From positions 434,001 through 498,000 of the forward strand of contig CANGHH010000001.1 in assembly GCA_947453725.1 (NCBI GenBank): DNA of 64,000 nucleotides. Direction: 5' to 3'. Below are positions 1 through 12,980 of the stretch, piece by piece. The notes below the pieces were generated by a model that was not told the origin of the DNA, made no database searches, and saw only the letters and a program-made list of their open reading frames with translations. The stretch's first letter is position 1. Every line of letters begins with the position of its first letter. Both the position numbers and the translations under genes were made by a program. Source of the stretch: Betaproteobacteria bacterium. GTDB lineage: Bacteria > Pseudomonadota > Gammaproteobacteria > Burkholderiales > Burkholderiaceae_C.

Positions 1-929
1 GCGACGCGGCGGATGTGGCTGTCGCCGACCACCGCGTCGCCGTCCAGCGCGGCCAGCGCGCGCGCCGCGCGGATCACCGTCAGCTCGCCGCGCAGGCCGT
101 CGGTACCCAGGCCCATGCACAGCTGGGCGGCGCGTTCCAGCGCGGCGTCGGGGGCCTGAACCCCGGCCAGCCGTTCGCGGGCGGCGACGATGCGCTTGCG
201 CACCTTGTCGTCGTCCTTGTGCCACTTCTGGGTGAAGGCAGCCGGGTCGCGCTCGAAGTCGTCGCGGCGGCGCACGACCTCGACGCGCGAGGCGAGGTCC
301 TGCGGCGTGCGCACTTCCACTGCCAGGCCGAAGCGGTCCAGCAGTTGCGGACGCAACTCGCCTTCCTCGGGGTTGCCGCTGCCGACCAGCACGAAGCGCG
401 CCGGGTGGCGCACGCTCAGGCCCTCGCGTTCGACGACGTTCTCGCCCGAGGCCGCGACGTCGATCAGCAGGTCGACCAGGTGGTCTTCGAGCAGGTTGAC
501 CTCGTCGATGTAGAGAAAGCCGCGGTGGGCGCGCGCCAGCAGGCCGGGCTCGAAAGCCTTGATGCCAGCGGTCAAGGCCTTCTCGAGGTCGAGCGCGCCG
601 ACCACGCGGTCTTCGGTGGCGCCCAGCGGCATGTCGACCACCGGCACCGGGATCAGGCGGCTCTTGACCTTGCCACCGGCCTTCAGCGTGGCGCAAGCTG
701 CGCACGAGGCGCTGTTGTCGGCCGGGTCGCAGCCGTAGACGCAGCCGACCACGGCGCGCATCTTGGGCAGCAGCGCGGCCAGCGCGCGCACCGCGGTGCT
801 CTTGCCGGTGCCGCGGTCGCCGAAGACCAGCACGCCGCCGATGCGCGGGTCGACCGCCGCACACAGGATGGCCAGCTTCATTTCGTCCTGGCCGACGATG
901 GCGGAAAAGGGAAAGTAGAGGGTCGACAT
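1..929 (-). CDS. bchI: Magnesium chelatase subunit I (partial, C-terminus beyond window)
   Basis: AAA+ ATPase subunit of the BchHID magnesium chelatase, which inserts Mg2+ into protoporphyrin IX, the first committed step of bacteriochlorophyll synthesis. The protein starts MSTLYFPFSAIVGQDEMKLA. Walker A is GDRGTGKST at residues 37-45, and the family segment GCDPADNSASC and a Walker B-like FLYIDEVNLL follow. About 309 codons are present; BchI is usually about 340-350 residues, so the C-terminal lid is cut by the window start. The ATG at 929 opens directly into the conserved FPFSAIVGQ region. It lies 31 bases after the stop of the DUF3422 gene on the same strand, so the two may share a transcript. 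A paralogous ChlI-type chelatase is unlikely given the photosynthetic electron carriers 8 kb away, but BchD is not visible. Confidence 0.93.
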   Translation of the reverse strand, partial: MSTLYFPFSAIVGQDEMKLAILCAAVDPRIGGVLVFGDRGTGKSTAVRALAALLPKMRAVVGCVYGCDPADNSASCAACATLKAGGKVKSRLIPVPVVDMPLGATEDRVVGALDLEKALTAGIKAFEPGLLARAHRGFLYIDEVNLLEDHLVDLLIDVAASGENVVEREGLSVRHPARFVLVGSGNPEEGELRPQLLDRFGLAVEVRTPQDLASRVEVVRRRDDFERDPAAFTQKWHKDDDKVRKRIVAARERLAGVQAPDAALERAAQLCMGLGTDGLRGELTVIRAARALAALDGDAVVGDSHIRRV

Positions 930-8409: not shown

Positions 8410-8441
8410 TTGACGAGACGGATTGTCACGTTAACATGACA
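8410..8441 (+). promoter_or_regulatory. Putative promoter with PpsR/CrtJ-type operator upstream of the tetrahaem cytochrome gene
   Basis: TTGACG (8410-8415) and TAACAT (8432-8437), 16 bases apart, resemble a sigma70 promoter. Overlapping the -10 is TGTCACGTTAACATGACA (8424-8441), which fits TGT-N12-ACA exactly and is a near-perfect dyad (8 of 9 positions). TGT-N12-ACA is the established recognition sequence of the aerobic photosynthesis repressor PpsR/CrtJ. Its position over the promoter suggests repression of the downstream cytochrome gene. The factor itself is not encoded in the window. Confidence 0.6.
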
Positions 8442-8560: not shown

Positions 8561-10144
8561 ATGGTCCGGTCGGTCAATATTCGGTGGCGCCTGTTCGGCG
8601 GCCTGCTGGCGCTGGCGTTCTGCCTGTTGGTGTCCGCCGTGGCGGTCCTGCGCGGCCTCGACCGCTCGCAGCAGGCCGACCCGCTGCAGACCGGCTACCG
8701 CGGCACCGGCATGGTCCAGATCCGCGGCGATGCGGCGCTGAAGGCCCAGGCCCTGCTGCAGGCCGCGCCGCCGATCGCTTCGGCGGCCCGTTCACGGCCC
8801 AATGGACCGCTGGCCGGCAAGGTCTACAAGAACGTCCAGGTGCTGGGCGACCTGCCGCTGGGTGAGTTCGGCCGCACCATGTCGGAGATCACCAACTGGA
8901 TCGCGCCCAACGAGAGTTGCGTCTACTGCCACGTCGAAGGCAACTTCGTCGCTGACGACAAGTACACCAAGGTGGTGGCAAGGCGCATGTTCCAGATGGT
9001 CCAGCAGATCAATGCCAACTGGAAATCGCACGTCGCCGGCACCGGCGTCACCTGCTACACCTGCCACCGTGGCAATGCCTTGCCGCAGCAGCGCTGGTTC
9101 CGCCAGCTGCCGCCGGTGGCGGGTGCCGACTTCATCGGCGGCCGCTCCGTCGCCCAGCCGCTGCAGGTGCGTACCGGCACGCTGCCGGGCGACCCGCTGG
9201 CGACCTTCCTGCTCAGCGAAACGGCCGCACCCTCGGTCCGCGTGGCCAGCCCGCGGGTGCTGGCGCAGGTCGTCGGCCAGCCCATCCAGCAGGCCGAAAA
9301 GACCTACGCGCTGATGCTGCATGTGTCGCAGTCGCTGGGCGTGAACTGCAGTTTCTGCCACAACACGCGGGCCTTTTCGAGCTGGGAACAAAGCTCGCCA
9401 CAGCGCCAGACTGCCTGGTACGGCATCCGCATGGTGCGGGACATCAACAGCCAATTCCTGGAGCCGCTGAGCAGCGCATTCCCGGCCTCGGCGCCGGGCC
9501 GACTGGGGCCGGCCGGCGACACGGCCAAGGTCAACTGCGCGACCTGCCACCTGGGCGCCAACAAGCCGCTGTACGGCGCACAGATGGCCCAGCACTACCC
9601 GGCGCTGCTGCTGCCGCCGCGGGCGGCTTCGGCGCCGCCGGCCGCGGCCTCGGCGGCCGAGCCCGCACCCGATGCCGCCGCCCTGGAGGCCGCCGCCTCG
9701 GCCGCCTCAGCCGCCTCAGCCGCCTCAGCCGCTGCGCAGATCGCGGTCGCCGCTTCGGCGCCGCAGGCCGCCGCGGTACTGGCGGCTGCGCCGGCTGCCG
9801 TGGTCGCCCCCAAGCCGGCTTCTGCGCTCCCGGCGCCGGCAGCTCTGGCCTTTCCGAGCGTGCCAGCGGAGGGCGACTGTGCGTCCTTGGCGGTGGCGGC
9901 CGGCAAAGCCAGCGTGGCCGTGCCAGCGGCGCAGGCCCAGCGGCGTGTCAAGGGCAAAGGGCGGCTGCAGTTCTATATCGCGCCGGCCTCGACCTGTGCC
10001 ATGCCGGGCGTCTTCATCCTGGCCACCGAACCGGTGATCGCCTACGCCACGCTGGCGGGCTACACGCGGGTGAAGTACGTCAACCCGCGCACGGGCCTCG
10101 AAGTGGTGGGCTGGGTCGACGCCCAGCGCGTGGCATCCGACTGA
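8561..10144 (+). CDS. pufC: Reaction-centre tetrahaem cytochrome subunit (PufC-like) with extra C-terminal SH3-like domain
   Basis: PufC carries electrons from HiPIP or cytochrome c to the photo-oxidised special pair, on the periplasmic face of the reaction centre. A single N-terminal anchor (LFGGLLALAFCLLVSAVAVL, residues 11-30) lacks a lipobox. Four CxxCH motifs lie at C120, C165, C263 and C326. Probable axial ligands are M107, M143, M252 and M291, plus H157 in the segment preceding the second motif, as in the Blastochloris subunit, so the core looks functional. Unusually, the core (to about 345) continues into an Ala-rich linker (355-435) and an extra domain (440-527) with C440 and C479 and a VGWVD ending, SH3-like by eye. 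No pufL, pufM or antenna gene is nearby, so this may be a second copy. The GTG/ATG context is weak; ATG 8561 is chosen. Confidence 0.85.
   Translation: MVRSVNIRWRLFGGLLALAFCLLVSAVAVLRGLDRSQQADPLQTGYRGTGMVQIRGDAALKAQALLQAAPPIASAARSRPNGPLAGKVYKNVQVLGDLPLGEFGRTMSEITNWIAPNESCVYCHVEGNFVADDKYTKVVARRMFQMVQQINANWKSHVAGTGVTCYTCHRGNALPQQRWFRQLPPVAGADFIGGRSVAQPLQVRTGTLPGDPLATFLLSETAAPSVRVASPRVLAQVVGQPIQQAEKTYALMLHVSQSLGVNCSFCHNTRAFSSWEQSSPQRQTAWYGIRMVRDINSQFLEPLSSAFPASAPGRLGPAGDTAKVNCATCHLGANKPLYGAQMAQHYPALLLPPRAASAPPAAASAAEPAPDAAALEAAASAASAASAASAAAQIAVAASAPQAAAVLAAAPAAVVAPKPASALPAPAALAFPSVPAEGDCASLAVAAGKASVAVPAAQAQRRVKGKGRLQFYIAPASTCAMPGVFILATEPVIAYATLAGYTRVKYVNPRTGLEVVGWVDAQRVASD
9692..9727 (+). repeat. 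In-frame 9-bp tandem repeat in the pufC-like linker
   Basis: Four consecutive copies of GCCGCCTCA (the first with one mismatch) encode Ala-Ala-Ser repeats inside the Ala-rich linker of the tetrahaem cytochrome. Slippage would lengthen or shorten the linker without breaking the frame. Confidence 0.8.
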
Positions 10145-10156
10145 TCGCGCCCGGAC

Positions 10157-10621
10157 TTATTCGCGCCGCTCGCCCCTGAAATCGTCGTGGCAGGCCTTGC
10201 AGGCATGCGCCACCGAGCCGGAAGCGGTCTTCACCAGGTCGAAATTGCCGGACTTGGCCGCCGCCGACAGCTTGGCGGCCTCGGTGATCATGCGGTCGGA
10301 AGCGGCCTTGAACTTGACCGGGTCCTTCCAGATCTCGGCCTTGGTGCGGTTGGGCAAGCCCTTGTCGCTGCCCGGTACGAAAGCCGTGAAGGGCAGGGCG
10401 GCCAGGCTGCTGATCAGGTCGGCGTTTTCCGCAGCGGCCTTGGCGTCGAAGGGCGTGATGCCCTGGGCCATGAAGGCGACGCGCGCGAAGTGTGTGGCCA
10501 GCACCTGGAACGCGCCCTGGCGGTAGCGGATGGCGCTGTCGGGGGTCTGGAATTGGGCGGCTGCAGGACCTGCGAAGGCCGCGCAGACCAGGGCCAGCAG
10601 GCCCAGTCTTTGTATTTTCAT
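10157..10621 (-). CDS. Cytochrome c'
   Basis: A 154-residue periplasmic class II c-type cytochrome. A Sec signal (LGLLALVCAAFAGPAAA) is followed by a four-helix-bundle sequence and the C-terminal haem motif CKACH (residues about 141-145) seven residues before the end, the class II layout. The conserved RYRQGAFQVLATHFA helix at the start of the mature protein supports cytochrome c' rather than cytochrome c-556. Roles in this family include NO binding and protection; the physiological partner is not visible. The ATG lies 1 base after the HiPIP stop, so the two form one operon, convergent with the tetrahaem cytochrome gene. Confidence 0.9.
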   Translation of the reverse strand: MKIQRLGLLALVCAAFAGPAAAQFQTPDSAIRYRQGAFQVLATHFARVAFMAQGITPFDAKAAAENADLISSLAALPFTAFVPGSDKGLPNRTKAEIWKDPVKFKAASDRMITEAAKLSAAAKSGNFDLVKTASGSVAHACKACHDDFRGERRE

Positions 10622-10622
10622 G

Positions 10623-10934
10623 TCAGCCCGCCTTGACGTAGGAACTGCACCAGCCGCCGTTGCTGACCAGTCGGTCGGGGGTCAGGTCGCATTCGGACCA
10701 GGGGTCGGCGGCCTTGCCCAGCCAGGCCATGCAGTTGTTGCACTTCTCGGACGCCGTGTGCTTGGGGAAGCGCTTGGCGTCGACCTGGGCCGAGTCGTGC
10801 TTGTAGCCGAGCGAAGCGGCCTTGGGTTCGCTTTCCTCGATCTTCTTCGGTCCGGCGTGCGCGCTGCCGCAGGCCAGGGTGGCGCCGCTGGCGACCACCT
10901 GGAACATGAAAATTCGACGGTTGCTGGATTTCAT
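10623..10934 (-). CDS. hip: High-potential iron-sulfur protein (HiPIP)
   Basis: A 103-residue soluble [4Fe-4S] electron carrier of the periplasm. The N-terminus SNRRIFMFQVVASGATLA is a twin-arginine signal ending at GSAHA, as expected for a protein exported with its cluster. Four cluster cysteines occur in KCNNC, SEC and GGWC, with the characteristic C-terminal GGWCSSYVK. In Rubrivivax gelatinosus HiPIP is the main donor to the reaction-centre cytochrome, so its place next to a PufC-like gene fits. The start has AGGA immediately upstream. It is the first gene of the HiPIP-cytochrome c' pair; its leader to the chemoreceptor gene is only 66 bases. Confidence 0.92.
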   Translation of the reverse strand: MKSSNRRIFMFQVVASGATLACGSAHAGPKKIEESEPKAASLGYKHDSAQVDAKRFPKHTASEKCNNCMAWLGKAADPWSECDLTPDRLVSNGGWCSSYVKAG

Positions 10935-11000: not shown

Positions 11001-12611
11001 TCAGGCGGCTGCGGCTTCGAGGCGGAATACCCGCACCGACTCGAGCAGTTGGGCGGCCTGCTGCCGCAGGCTCTCGGCCGCGGCAGCCGATTCCTCGACC
11101 AGCGCCGCGTTTTGTTGGGTGGTCTGGTCCAGTTCCGAAACGGCCTGGCCGACCTGGTCGATGCCGCTCGTCTGTTCGCTGGCGGCGTGGCTGATCTCGC
11201 CGATCAGCGTGGTCACGCGCTCGACCTGGGCGACGATGTCCTGCATCGTGCTGCCGGCGCGGCCCACCAGCTGCACGCCGCGCTCCACGCTGTCGGCGCT
11301 GGCGCCGATCAGGCCCTTGATCTCGCGCGCCGCCGAGGCGCTGCGCTGCGCCAGGTTGCGCACCTCGCCGGCCACCACGGCAAAGCCGCGGCCCTGTTCA
11401 CCGGCCCGGGCGGCTTCGACGGCGGCATTCAGCGCCAGGATATTGGTCTGGAAGGCGATGCCGTCGATGACGCCGATGATGTCGCCGATGCGCCGGCTGG
11501 CCGTCTTGATCGCTTCCATGGTCTGCACCACCTCGCCCACCTCCTCGCCGCCCTTGCGCGCCGCAGCGCTGGCCCCTTCGGAGATGGCGTTCGCGGTGCG
11601 CGCCGTTTCGCTGTTGTTGCGCACGGTGGCGCGCAGCTCTTCCATCGCGGCGGCGGTTTGTTCCAGGCTGGCGGCCTGACGCTCGGTCCGTTCGCTGAGG
11701 TCGGTGTTGCCCCTGGCGATCTCTTCGGTGCCGGTGACGATGTGTTCGCTGCCGTCGCGCACGCTGCCGACCACGCCGGCCAGGTGCCGGCTCATGGCCC
11801 GCATCGCGTCGAGCAGTTCGCCGGTCTCGTCCTGGTAATGCGCGGTGGTCTGCACCGTGAGGTCGCCGGTGGCGGCAATCTGGGCCAGCCGGGCGGCTTC
11901 GCCGATGGGTCCGGTGATCGAACGCGTGACGCACAGGGCCAGCAGGGCGCCCAGGCTCAGCGCGGCGGCGACGAAACCCCACAGCAGCCAGCGCGCCTGC
12001 CGGTAGGCGGCTTGCGAATCGGCCACGTACTCGTCGCTGGTCTTGGCCTGCAGGCCTGACAGCGTCTGCAGCACGGTGATCCACCGCGCCTGGCGCGCCC
12101 TGACCTTGTCCATCACGAAGGCGGTGGCCTCTTCGGTCTTGCCCGACAGGCCCAGTTCGACGGCTTGCGCCAGCAGCGTGCCGTTGACCTTTTCGGCGTT
12201 GTCGATGGCGTCCATCAGCGCCTTCTCGGCCTCGCTGGCGTCGTAGCGTGCGATCAGCGCATGCAGCTCGTGCTTGGCGTTCTCGTAGCGCTTGGTGGCG
12301 TCGTCGATCGAGGCCAGCTCGGCCTTCTTCAGGTCGCTGTCCGACAGCATCGTCAGGTTGCGGATCGCCACGGCCCGCTGGCGCACCGAATCGATCATCT
12401 GGCTGGCGCGGGCAATCTGCTGGTTGTTGTTCTGTGCGATGTGCGCCATGCGGTCGTTGATCTCCGACAGGCGCAGCGTGGCGAAGACGGCCATTGCCGC
12501 CATCAGGACAAAGACGCCGGCGAAGGCGATACCCAGGCGCGGCCCGATGCGCAGCTTCAGCAGTGGCTGGATCAGCCACAAAGACCAATCGGCCTTCCGG
12601 AACGAATTCAT
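11001..12611 (-). CDS. Methyl-accepting chemotaxis protein
   Basis: A 536-residue transmembrane chemoreceptor. TM1 is about residues 22-42 ([19 protein letters not shown]), then a roughly 150-residue four-helix-type periplasmic domain, TM2 ([21 protein letters not shown]), HAMP, and the cytoplasmic signalling hairpin with the strongly conserved tip [20 protein letters not shown], which contacts CheA and CheW. There is no C-terminal CheR/CheB-binding pentapeptide (it ends LEAAAA). The ATG at 12611 has GGGGAG 7 bases upstream. The ligand cannot be inferred. The adjacent pseudaminic acid cluster is often linked to flagellin glycosylation. Confidence 0.92.
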
Positions 12612-12980
12612 GCGATCAACTCCCCTGCTTGCGGGCCCGCCTGCGGCGGCGCCACCCACGACCATCTATGGACTGCCTGTGTAGTGCTCGATGCGTGCCG
12701 CGGTGTTGGCGGGCGGAGACCGTCGTCGAGGCAGTCCTCGGAGGCGGGCGCCGCTGTCATGCACACACTGCAAGCAGGGACAAGCGGGCTATCGGTCGGC
12801 CGTGGCTCGACTTGAGTGCCGCGGTGACCGGCCGCGCCGGCCGCCGCGGCCTGATCGCGCCGCAGCGGCCGGCTTCGTGAAATAGGGGCGTACTGGGCGG
12901 GGCTGGATGAAGCAATTGAGGGTGAATGCCGGTGGATATCGACTGACTGCCGTGGGGCCTGCGAAATCAGACTTCAAGCC
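12612..12980. other. Intergenic region between the chemoreceptor and the pse cluster (369 bp)
   Basis: Divergent promoter region. It contains a very GC-rich patch at about 12830-12875 with self-complementary GGCCG repeats that could form hairpins. No sigma28 (TAAA/GCCGATAA) or sigma54 (TGGC/TTGC) promoter was found for either flanking gene, and no gene is visible. Confidence 0.4.

Follow-up and report, generated by a model that had tools for sequence, protein, structure and literature searches.

The window, by which we mean the whole 64,000-nucleotide stretch of DNA analysed here, carries at 8561..10144 (plus strand; C1:442561-444144 on the contig) a gene for a 527-residue tetrahaem reaction-centre-type cytochrome, which we call PufC2. 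The protein matches PF02276 at E 1.3e-116 and the NCBIfam PufC equivalog NF040706 at 399 bits (cut-off 150). The start codon is preceded at 119 bp by the palindrome TGTCA-N8-TGACA (8424..8441, plus strand), which fits the PpsR/CrtJ consensus TGT-N12-ACA. Downstream lie three genes on the minus strand: one for a cytochrome c' (10157..10621; PF01322, E 2.2e-33), one for a HiPIP that we propose as the electron donor to PufC2 (10623..10934; PF01355, E 5.7e-20), and one for a methyl-accepting chemotaxis protein (MCP) with a 4HB sensor domain (11001..12665; PF00015, PF12729 and PF00672). At its left end the window begins inside bchI, the edge of the photosynthesis gene cluster (3..923, minus strand, running off the window; Mg_chelatase E 5.9e-14, 68% identity to a BchI-like open reading frame at locus L078).

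The CytoC_RC core of PufC2 (residues 39-349; 8675..9607, plus strand; PF02276 match) contains CxxCH motifs at residues 120, 165, 263 and 326. In the alignment, M107, M143, M146, H157 and M252 are identical in 119 of 119 operon-type PufC proteins and include the expected axial positions. The initial annotation had described four complete haem motifs with the expected axial Met and His residues, and that description holds. Additional Cys residues are at 21, 440 and 479, and the lipobox Cys of the relatives is replaced in PufC2 (C33L). A predicted N-terminal helix (residues 3-32; 8567..8656, plus strand), taken from a full-length model of poor overall confidence (mean pLDDT 62), is a likely membrane anchor, and PufC2 is probably held by this helix instead of by lipid. 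A lipid-anchored Cys is not universal in PufC. The PufC of Rhodopila globiformis likewise has no lipid-carrying Cys and is anchored by a helix; there, however, the helix-anchored protein is the ordinary PufC, whereas here the other proteins of the PufC2 clade keep the Cys (PMC9640540).

PufC2 also passes the NCBIfam exception model for non-photosynthetic proteins (93 bits, cut-off 70), but this model does not discriminate, because the ordinary PufC of the same genome passes it too (94 bits). A partial likeness in the haem segments to the Puf2C cytochrome c-554 amounts to 53.6 bits against a cut-off of 800 (NF043009), and that identity was rejected.

PufC1 and the photosynthesis gene cluster

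The gene had been described initially as lying away from any puf operon, in a window free of pufL, pufM and antenna genes, and as possibly encoding a second cytochrome subunit. A profile search of the genome's contigs placed pufL at C1:420571-421302 and pufM at C1:419619-420377. These are the two Photo_RC matches in the genome, both within C1:419619-421302, and both precede the window, which begins at C1:434001. With the genome's own LH beta protein as probe, no significant match was obtained in the window (best E 1.5). Directly after pufM lies pufC1 (C1:418546-419472), which encodes an ordinary lipoprotein PufC, and the presence of this separate gene makes the window gene a second PufC. The absence of pufL, pufM and antenna genes and the suspected second subunit were thus borne out. 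The location was only half right: the operon is indeed distant (23 kb from the PufC2 gene to pufC1, 21-23 kb to pufLM), but since the window begins inside bchI, the gene stands 7.6 kb from the photosynthesis gene cluster and flanks it.

With pufC1 in its place behind pufM, we rejected the possibility that PufC2 is the genome's only pufC, relocated. PufC2 is not a recent copy of pufC1 either; the two proteins are 48% identical and fall in different supported clades. Contamination or an assembly artefact was rejected as well, as the gene sits on a 506-kb contig together with pufLM and bchI in a genome that is 99.6% complete. A look for inverted repeats yielded no convincing ones.

The genome holds a third, partial PufC relative on contig C7 (L048:6623-7996, also L005; minus strand), which is lipoprotein-like and has three CxxCH motifs, two of them inside a CytoC_RC match to profile positions 45-140. 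By our reading it appears to keep haems 1, 2 and 4 and to miss the haem-3 segment. It also has two SH3-like domains, which share 52% and 43% identity with that of PufC2. A partial match of this type was listed for this genome only in the genus and family searches.

The C-terminal extension

Past the tetrahaem core PufC2 has about 175 further residues, which end in an SH3-like domain. An Ala-rich linker (residues 350-438; 9608..9874, plus strand; 44 Ala of 89 residues) leads to a C-terminal domain with two Cys (9869..10141, plus strand), assigned as SH3-like by alignment, structure modelling and Foldseek. Built from four sequences, the model renders the last ~90 residues as a helix and the strands of an SH3-like barrel (mean pLDDT 81). 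SH3 folds rank high when this model is searched with Foldseek, the best E being 0.024 and none reaching 0.001; the bacterial SH3 structure 2krs is matched at E 0.073 with a TM score of 0.71 by target. The initial annotation had proposed searching residues 440-527 against domain databases; the tail matched no Pfam or NCBIfam family up to E 1. Its picture of an Ala-rich linker followed by a two-cysteine SH3-like domain nonetheless stands, with the SH3-like fold supported by the model, not proven.

Cys 440 and Cys 479 are invariant across the four domain copies aligned. The domain turned up in the window PufC2, at L060 and twice in the C7 protein. A search of 81 relatives, a set without genome G091, gave as its next best match one at E 0.002. 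Only two of the five PufC2 loci have the extension; the proteins of L047, L082 and L083 have short tails. The SH3-like extension is a lineage-specific addition, secondary to whatever sets PufC2 apart, and the likeliest guess at its role is that of a periplasmic tether; the initial annotation had suggested peptidoglycan or another periplasmic partner as what it might hold on to.

Other PufC proteins end differently. Twenty-nine of the 119 operon-type tails finish in an OmpA-like domain (PF00691; for example L054:5382-7751 and L027:1162-2814, both plus strand), which is different from the PufC2 domain. The notion that the extension is a general PufC tail thus holds for other PufC in the form of the OmpA-like domain, and not for the SH3-like one. 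The extension is not what marks PufC2 out. More informative is the genomic context, with a HiPIP gene, a chemoreceptor gene and a PpsR-type site, which the initial annotation had passed over. Most of the listed OmpA-like copies have GYHSA or something similar, and GxADK is found in L014, L027 and L044. We take the Asp of GxADK to be the peptidoglycan-binding residue; because a GYHSA-like motif replaces it, most OmpA-like PufC tails may lack that Asp. Such fusions resemble PufC2 in joining a C-terminal periplasmic domain to PufC, and differ in using another domain family and in occurring on operon-type PufC. They are already published, in a report that calls them relatively rare and allows for errors in the gene models (PMC12650329).

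Extra PufC proteins and their linked genes

In the genus, PF02276 was found in 46 of 81 genomes and pufL/M in 46 of 81, by eye the same ones. In the family sample, where up to five PF02276 candidates were scored per genome, the figures were 65 and 64 of 399; the odd genome, G387, is 78% complete and has its PufC in two pieces. Two nearly full-length PufC proteins are present in nine of the 81 genus genomes. For G021 and G063 both copies lie near pufL/M, the second in a second puf operon, so these were rejected as further cases of the PufC2 kind and seven genus genomes have a PufC outside the puf operon. The family sample adds up to at least six such genomes (G000, the window's own, and G085, G091, G154, G450 and G471). 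A class-wide draw of 369 genomes yielded, besides the window's own genome, five with one full-length PufC each and six with partial matches.

We built PufC trees from 64 rows and then from 70 rows, the latter drawn from 138 aligned with operon rows thinned at 72% identity. In both trees the extra PufC proteins split into two clades: clade A, with nine rows (support 100/99), and clade B, which contains the PufC2 proteins of the window, L060, L047, L082 and L083 (99/95); the bootstrap of the 70-row tree had not settled, and its support values are to be read in that light. Clade B nests among operon-type PufC, apart from the genome's own pufC1. L060 and L084 were taken as one place, on a 654,939-base contig of Rubrivivax pictus strain W35; L082 comes from the MAG Umea_bin-02404, which also holds a pufLMC stretch (L139).

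Several single loci deserve mention here. L078:8760-9890 is the only PufC found in G339; it is surrounded by bch genes, on a contig different from that of pufLM (L179), and has two TGT-N12-ACA sites upstream. It falls near clade B, grouping with two operon rows (92/96, 70-row tree), and was counted in neither clade. In a MAG labelled uncultured Ferrovum sp., the PufC behind pufM is joined at a distance of ~5.6 kb by another one, a divergent protein with four haems (L134:7049 onward). At L065 (G450:C3) the operon pufC reads in two overlapping frames and is therefore broken or misassembled; the HiPIP-linked PufC of that genome, L064, is whole. The clade-A loci are L039-L043, L059, L062, L063 and L064, some of which have as neighbours a LysR regulator, a calcineurin-like phosphoesterase and a SoxA/TsdA-type monohaem cytochrome; to judge by these genes, the surroundings of clade A may form an electron-donor gene cluster.

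Both clades are tied to HiPIP genes. For clade A, a HiPIP gene lies directly upstream of PufC in nine of nine loci. For clade B, one lies near PufC2 in four of five, adjoining it in L047, L082 and L083 and standing next but one in the window; in the fifth (L084/L060) the contig breaks off inside the PufC2 frame, short of the downstream side. Identity of the window HiPIP is 68% to that of L082, 65% to L083 and 48% to L047, compared with 45% and 36% to the genome's other two HiPIPs. When 15 HiPIPs were placed in a tree, the proteins linked to clade B and those linked to clade A formed separate groups (97/95 and 99/99). Because its rows comprised the linked HiPIPs and the other two of this genome, the tree shows co-inheritance and not exclusivity. 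The cytochrome c' gene also lies beside PufC2 in L084; tblastn did not find it in the other three clade-B loci as fetched.

The upstream palindrome may tie PufC2 to the photosystem genes. Two sites in the 4.40-Mb genome read TGTCA-N8-TGACA (for the window, 0.03 would be expected): one upstream of PufC2 and one at C1:412534, which stands 152 bp ahead of a pucBA-type pair, an LH beta gene and then an alpha-like gene. The pattern read backwards occurs once in the 4.40 Mb. The loose form TGT-N12-ACA is not unusual in the window (seven found, 5.2 expected), and it lies at most 500 bp upstream in four of five clade-B loci (window, L084, L047 and L083), L082 having none within that distance. It was found in none of the nine clade-A units, scanned before the HiPIP gene (over 194 bp in L043). 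Among 2000 pieces of 560 bp taken at random 7.7% contain it, a rate that may understate chance in intergenic DNA because the pieces were mostly coding. The genome has a PpsR gene at C1:392642 (467 bits, cut-off 275), and a second homologue nearby (C1:388834-390114, minus strand) scores 248 bits, below that cut-off. PpsR of Rvi. gelatinosus acts on such sites at pucB and crtI, sites that are partly imperfect there (PMC4452267). PufC2 would thus be under the photosystem regulator PpsR/CrtJ, with PpsR presumably binding the palindrome.

PufC2 and the reaction centre

To ask how far PufC2 retains the residues of a reaction-centre subunit, we compared it with the 119 operon-type PufC proteins, having set apart beforehand repeat-locus rows, fragments and five rows of unclear kind. 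Linkage of these rows to pufL/M was seen where the contig allowed, and for short genus loci by coordinate comparison only. At 101 columns fixed in at least 95% of them, PufC2 departs at 12 and the other clade-B rows at 4, 6, 6 and 9; the values are 12-22 for clade A, with an operon-row median of 1 and a maximum of 9. Near haems 3 and 4 PufC2 has no more unusual residues than the operon range allows, but it exceeds that range in the rest of the protein, including the donor end; the clade-B mean is slightly above the operon range at haem 4. In a published account, haem 1 is the electron entry and haem 3 is nearest the special pair, as is also generally held (PMC7889895).

Clade B has signature residues: I72, R79, G104 and E126 in five of five, S119 and G313 in four of five, E126 being partly a selection effect because the patterns used to retrieve L082 and L083 included HVEG. 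G104 occupies the position of Thr91 of Tch. tepidum, a HiPIP contact, and is Gly in all five clade-B proteins and in 0 of 119 operon-type ones. At the Val95 position PufC2 has Ser and the other clade-B rows Asn or Thr; Tyr76 and Thr98 are kept, and the Trp116 position has Phe, which 76 of 119 operon rows also have. Such conservation is consistent with an alternative subunit that has a different donor, without proving it.

We therefore consider, with about even confidence for and against, that the photosynthetic reaction centre has in PufC2 a second, functional tetrahaem cytochrome subunit. The protein would be held by its N-terminal helix with no lipid, made under PpsR/CrtJ control, receive electrons at haem 1 from its own adjacent-encoded HiPIP, pass them towards the special pair, and stand in for PufC1 in some of the reaction centres or in certain conditions. 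For this reading speak the separate pufC1, the clade-B grouping, the HiPIP and MCP neighbours, the intact core and the palindrome common to PufC2 and the pucBA-type pair. Binding to PufLM and a preference for its own HiPIP are, on these sequence grounds, what we infer. Against it stand the larger number of departures from fixed positions than in any of the 119 operon rows (12 against a maximum of 9), the poor full-length model, the C7 derivative, L082 with its missing site, and the high rough dN/dS of the window gene (0.38-0.78, by a method unreliable at this G+C).

In an alternative that we regard as possible, if on the unlikely side, PufC2 works off the reaction centre as a periplasmic hub, held by helix and SH3-like tail, that swaps electrons among soluble carriers with the HiPIP and the cytochrome c'. 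The C7 protein, which lacks the haem-3 segment and carries the tail domain twice, shows that a PufC relative can part from the reaction centre; the PufC2 gene is unlinked to pufLM, and cytochrome c' and HiPIP genes adjoin it. However, on the side of the special pair, around haems 3 and 4, conservation in PufC2 equals that in operon PufC, the promoter palindrome is common to PufC2 and pucBA, and PufC2 was never seen without pufL/M in the genomes searched.

The chemoreceptor admits a further reading. The MCP lies beside PufC2 in four of five clade-B loci (window, L082, L083 and L084), upstream and co-directional in L084, downstream and convergent in the other three; these differing orientations indicate that the closeness of the two genes survived rearrangement. 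The window protein matches the other three over nearly its whole length, and its first 240 residues, which contain the sensor domain, are 62, 62 and 55% identical to those of L082, L083 and L084. Other MCPs among the fetched loci (L070 and L131) match more weakly, at 48 and 52%, and give no match with the first 240 residues alone. When residues 30-240 were searched against the 399 family genomes, close relatives appeared in G000 and G091 only, the two genomes of that sample with a clade-B PufC2, and the next best was at most 32% identical; with up to seven candidates scored per genome, the search may have overlooked relatives. An MCP of this kind is absent from L047, where the PufC-HiPIP pair is followed by a hybrid histidine kinase whose Tll0287-like domain contains CVTCH.

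PufC2, HiPIP and MCP might accordingly form a sensory unit, in which the chemoreceptor reads the redox state of the branch (in L047, the kinase with its haem motif) and steers motility or expression. The orthologous sensor part, its near-confinement to the two genomes and the L047 kinase favour this, but the MCP has no haem-binding family match, the three genes may be merely inherited together, and the number of candidates scored bounds the search; we think a sensory unit rather unlikely. A broader version, which we find unlikely though slightly less so, combines this idea with the alternative subunit: PufC2, HiPIP and MCP would be one inherited unit under photosystem control, whose dedicated receptor monitors a dedicated donor branch, letting the bacterium use electron flow through its own reaction centres to steer or regulate.

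We think it very improbable that PufC2 is being lost, as a redundant duplicate or as a relic of transfer. Clade B is rare (G000 and G073 of 81 genus genomes, G000 and G091 of 399 family genomes) and the rough dN/dS of the window gene reaches 0.78, but all ligands are intact in five loci, the protein is no recent copy of pufC1, the equally rough dN/dS between L082 and L083, again by a method unreliable at this G+C, is 0.23, and partners and promoter site are conserved.

To our knowledge, the purple bacterial reaction centre has been described with one cytochrome subunit. PufC2 has in common with PufC (PF02276, NF040706) the full core, the four haem motifs and the axial ligands; unlike it, PufC2 is a second copy outside the puf operon, lacks the lipobox Cys, has an SH3-like tail and shows changed HiPIP-contact residues. 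A second pufC in one genome, acquired by transfer, is known from Citromicrobium JL354; there it lies in an incomplete second photosynthesis cluster, whereas the window gene has a HiPIP and a chemoreceptor beside it and no pufLM (PMC12654162). Within the open PubMed Central literature, as far as the texts were accessible, we found no report of a second PufC tied to a HiPIP.

Two separate lineages of extra PufC, each with its own HiPIP group, suggest that some Burkholderiales may keep alternative donor branches, and PufC2 with its own HiPIP and sensor suggests an unrecognised alternative electron route into photosynthesis. The PufC2 branch adds a photosystem-type promoter site and a private chemoreceptor. 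If this is true, how taxis or regulation reads photosynthetic electron flow would become testable by single deletions. A relative of the PufC2 locus is carried by Rubrivivax pictus strain W35, a named isolate record.
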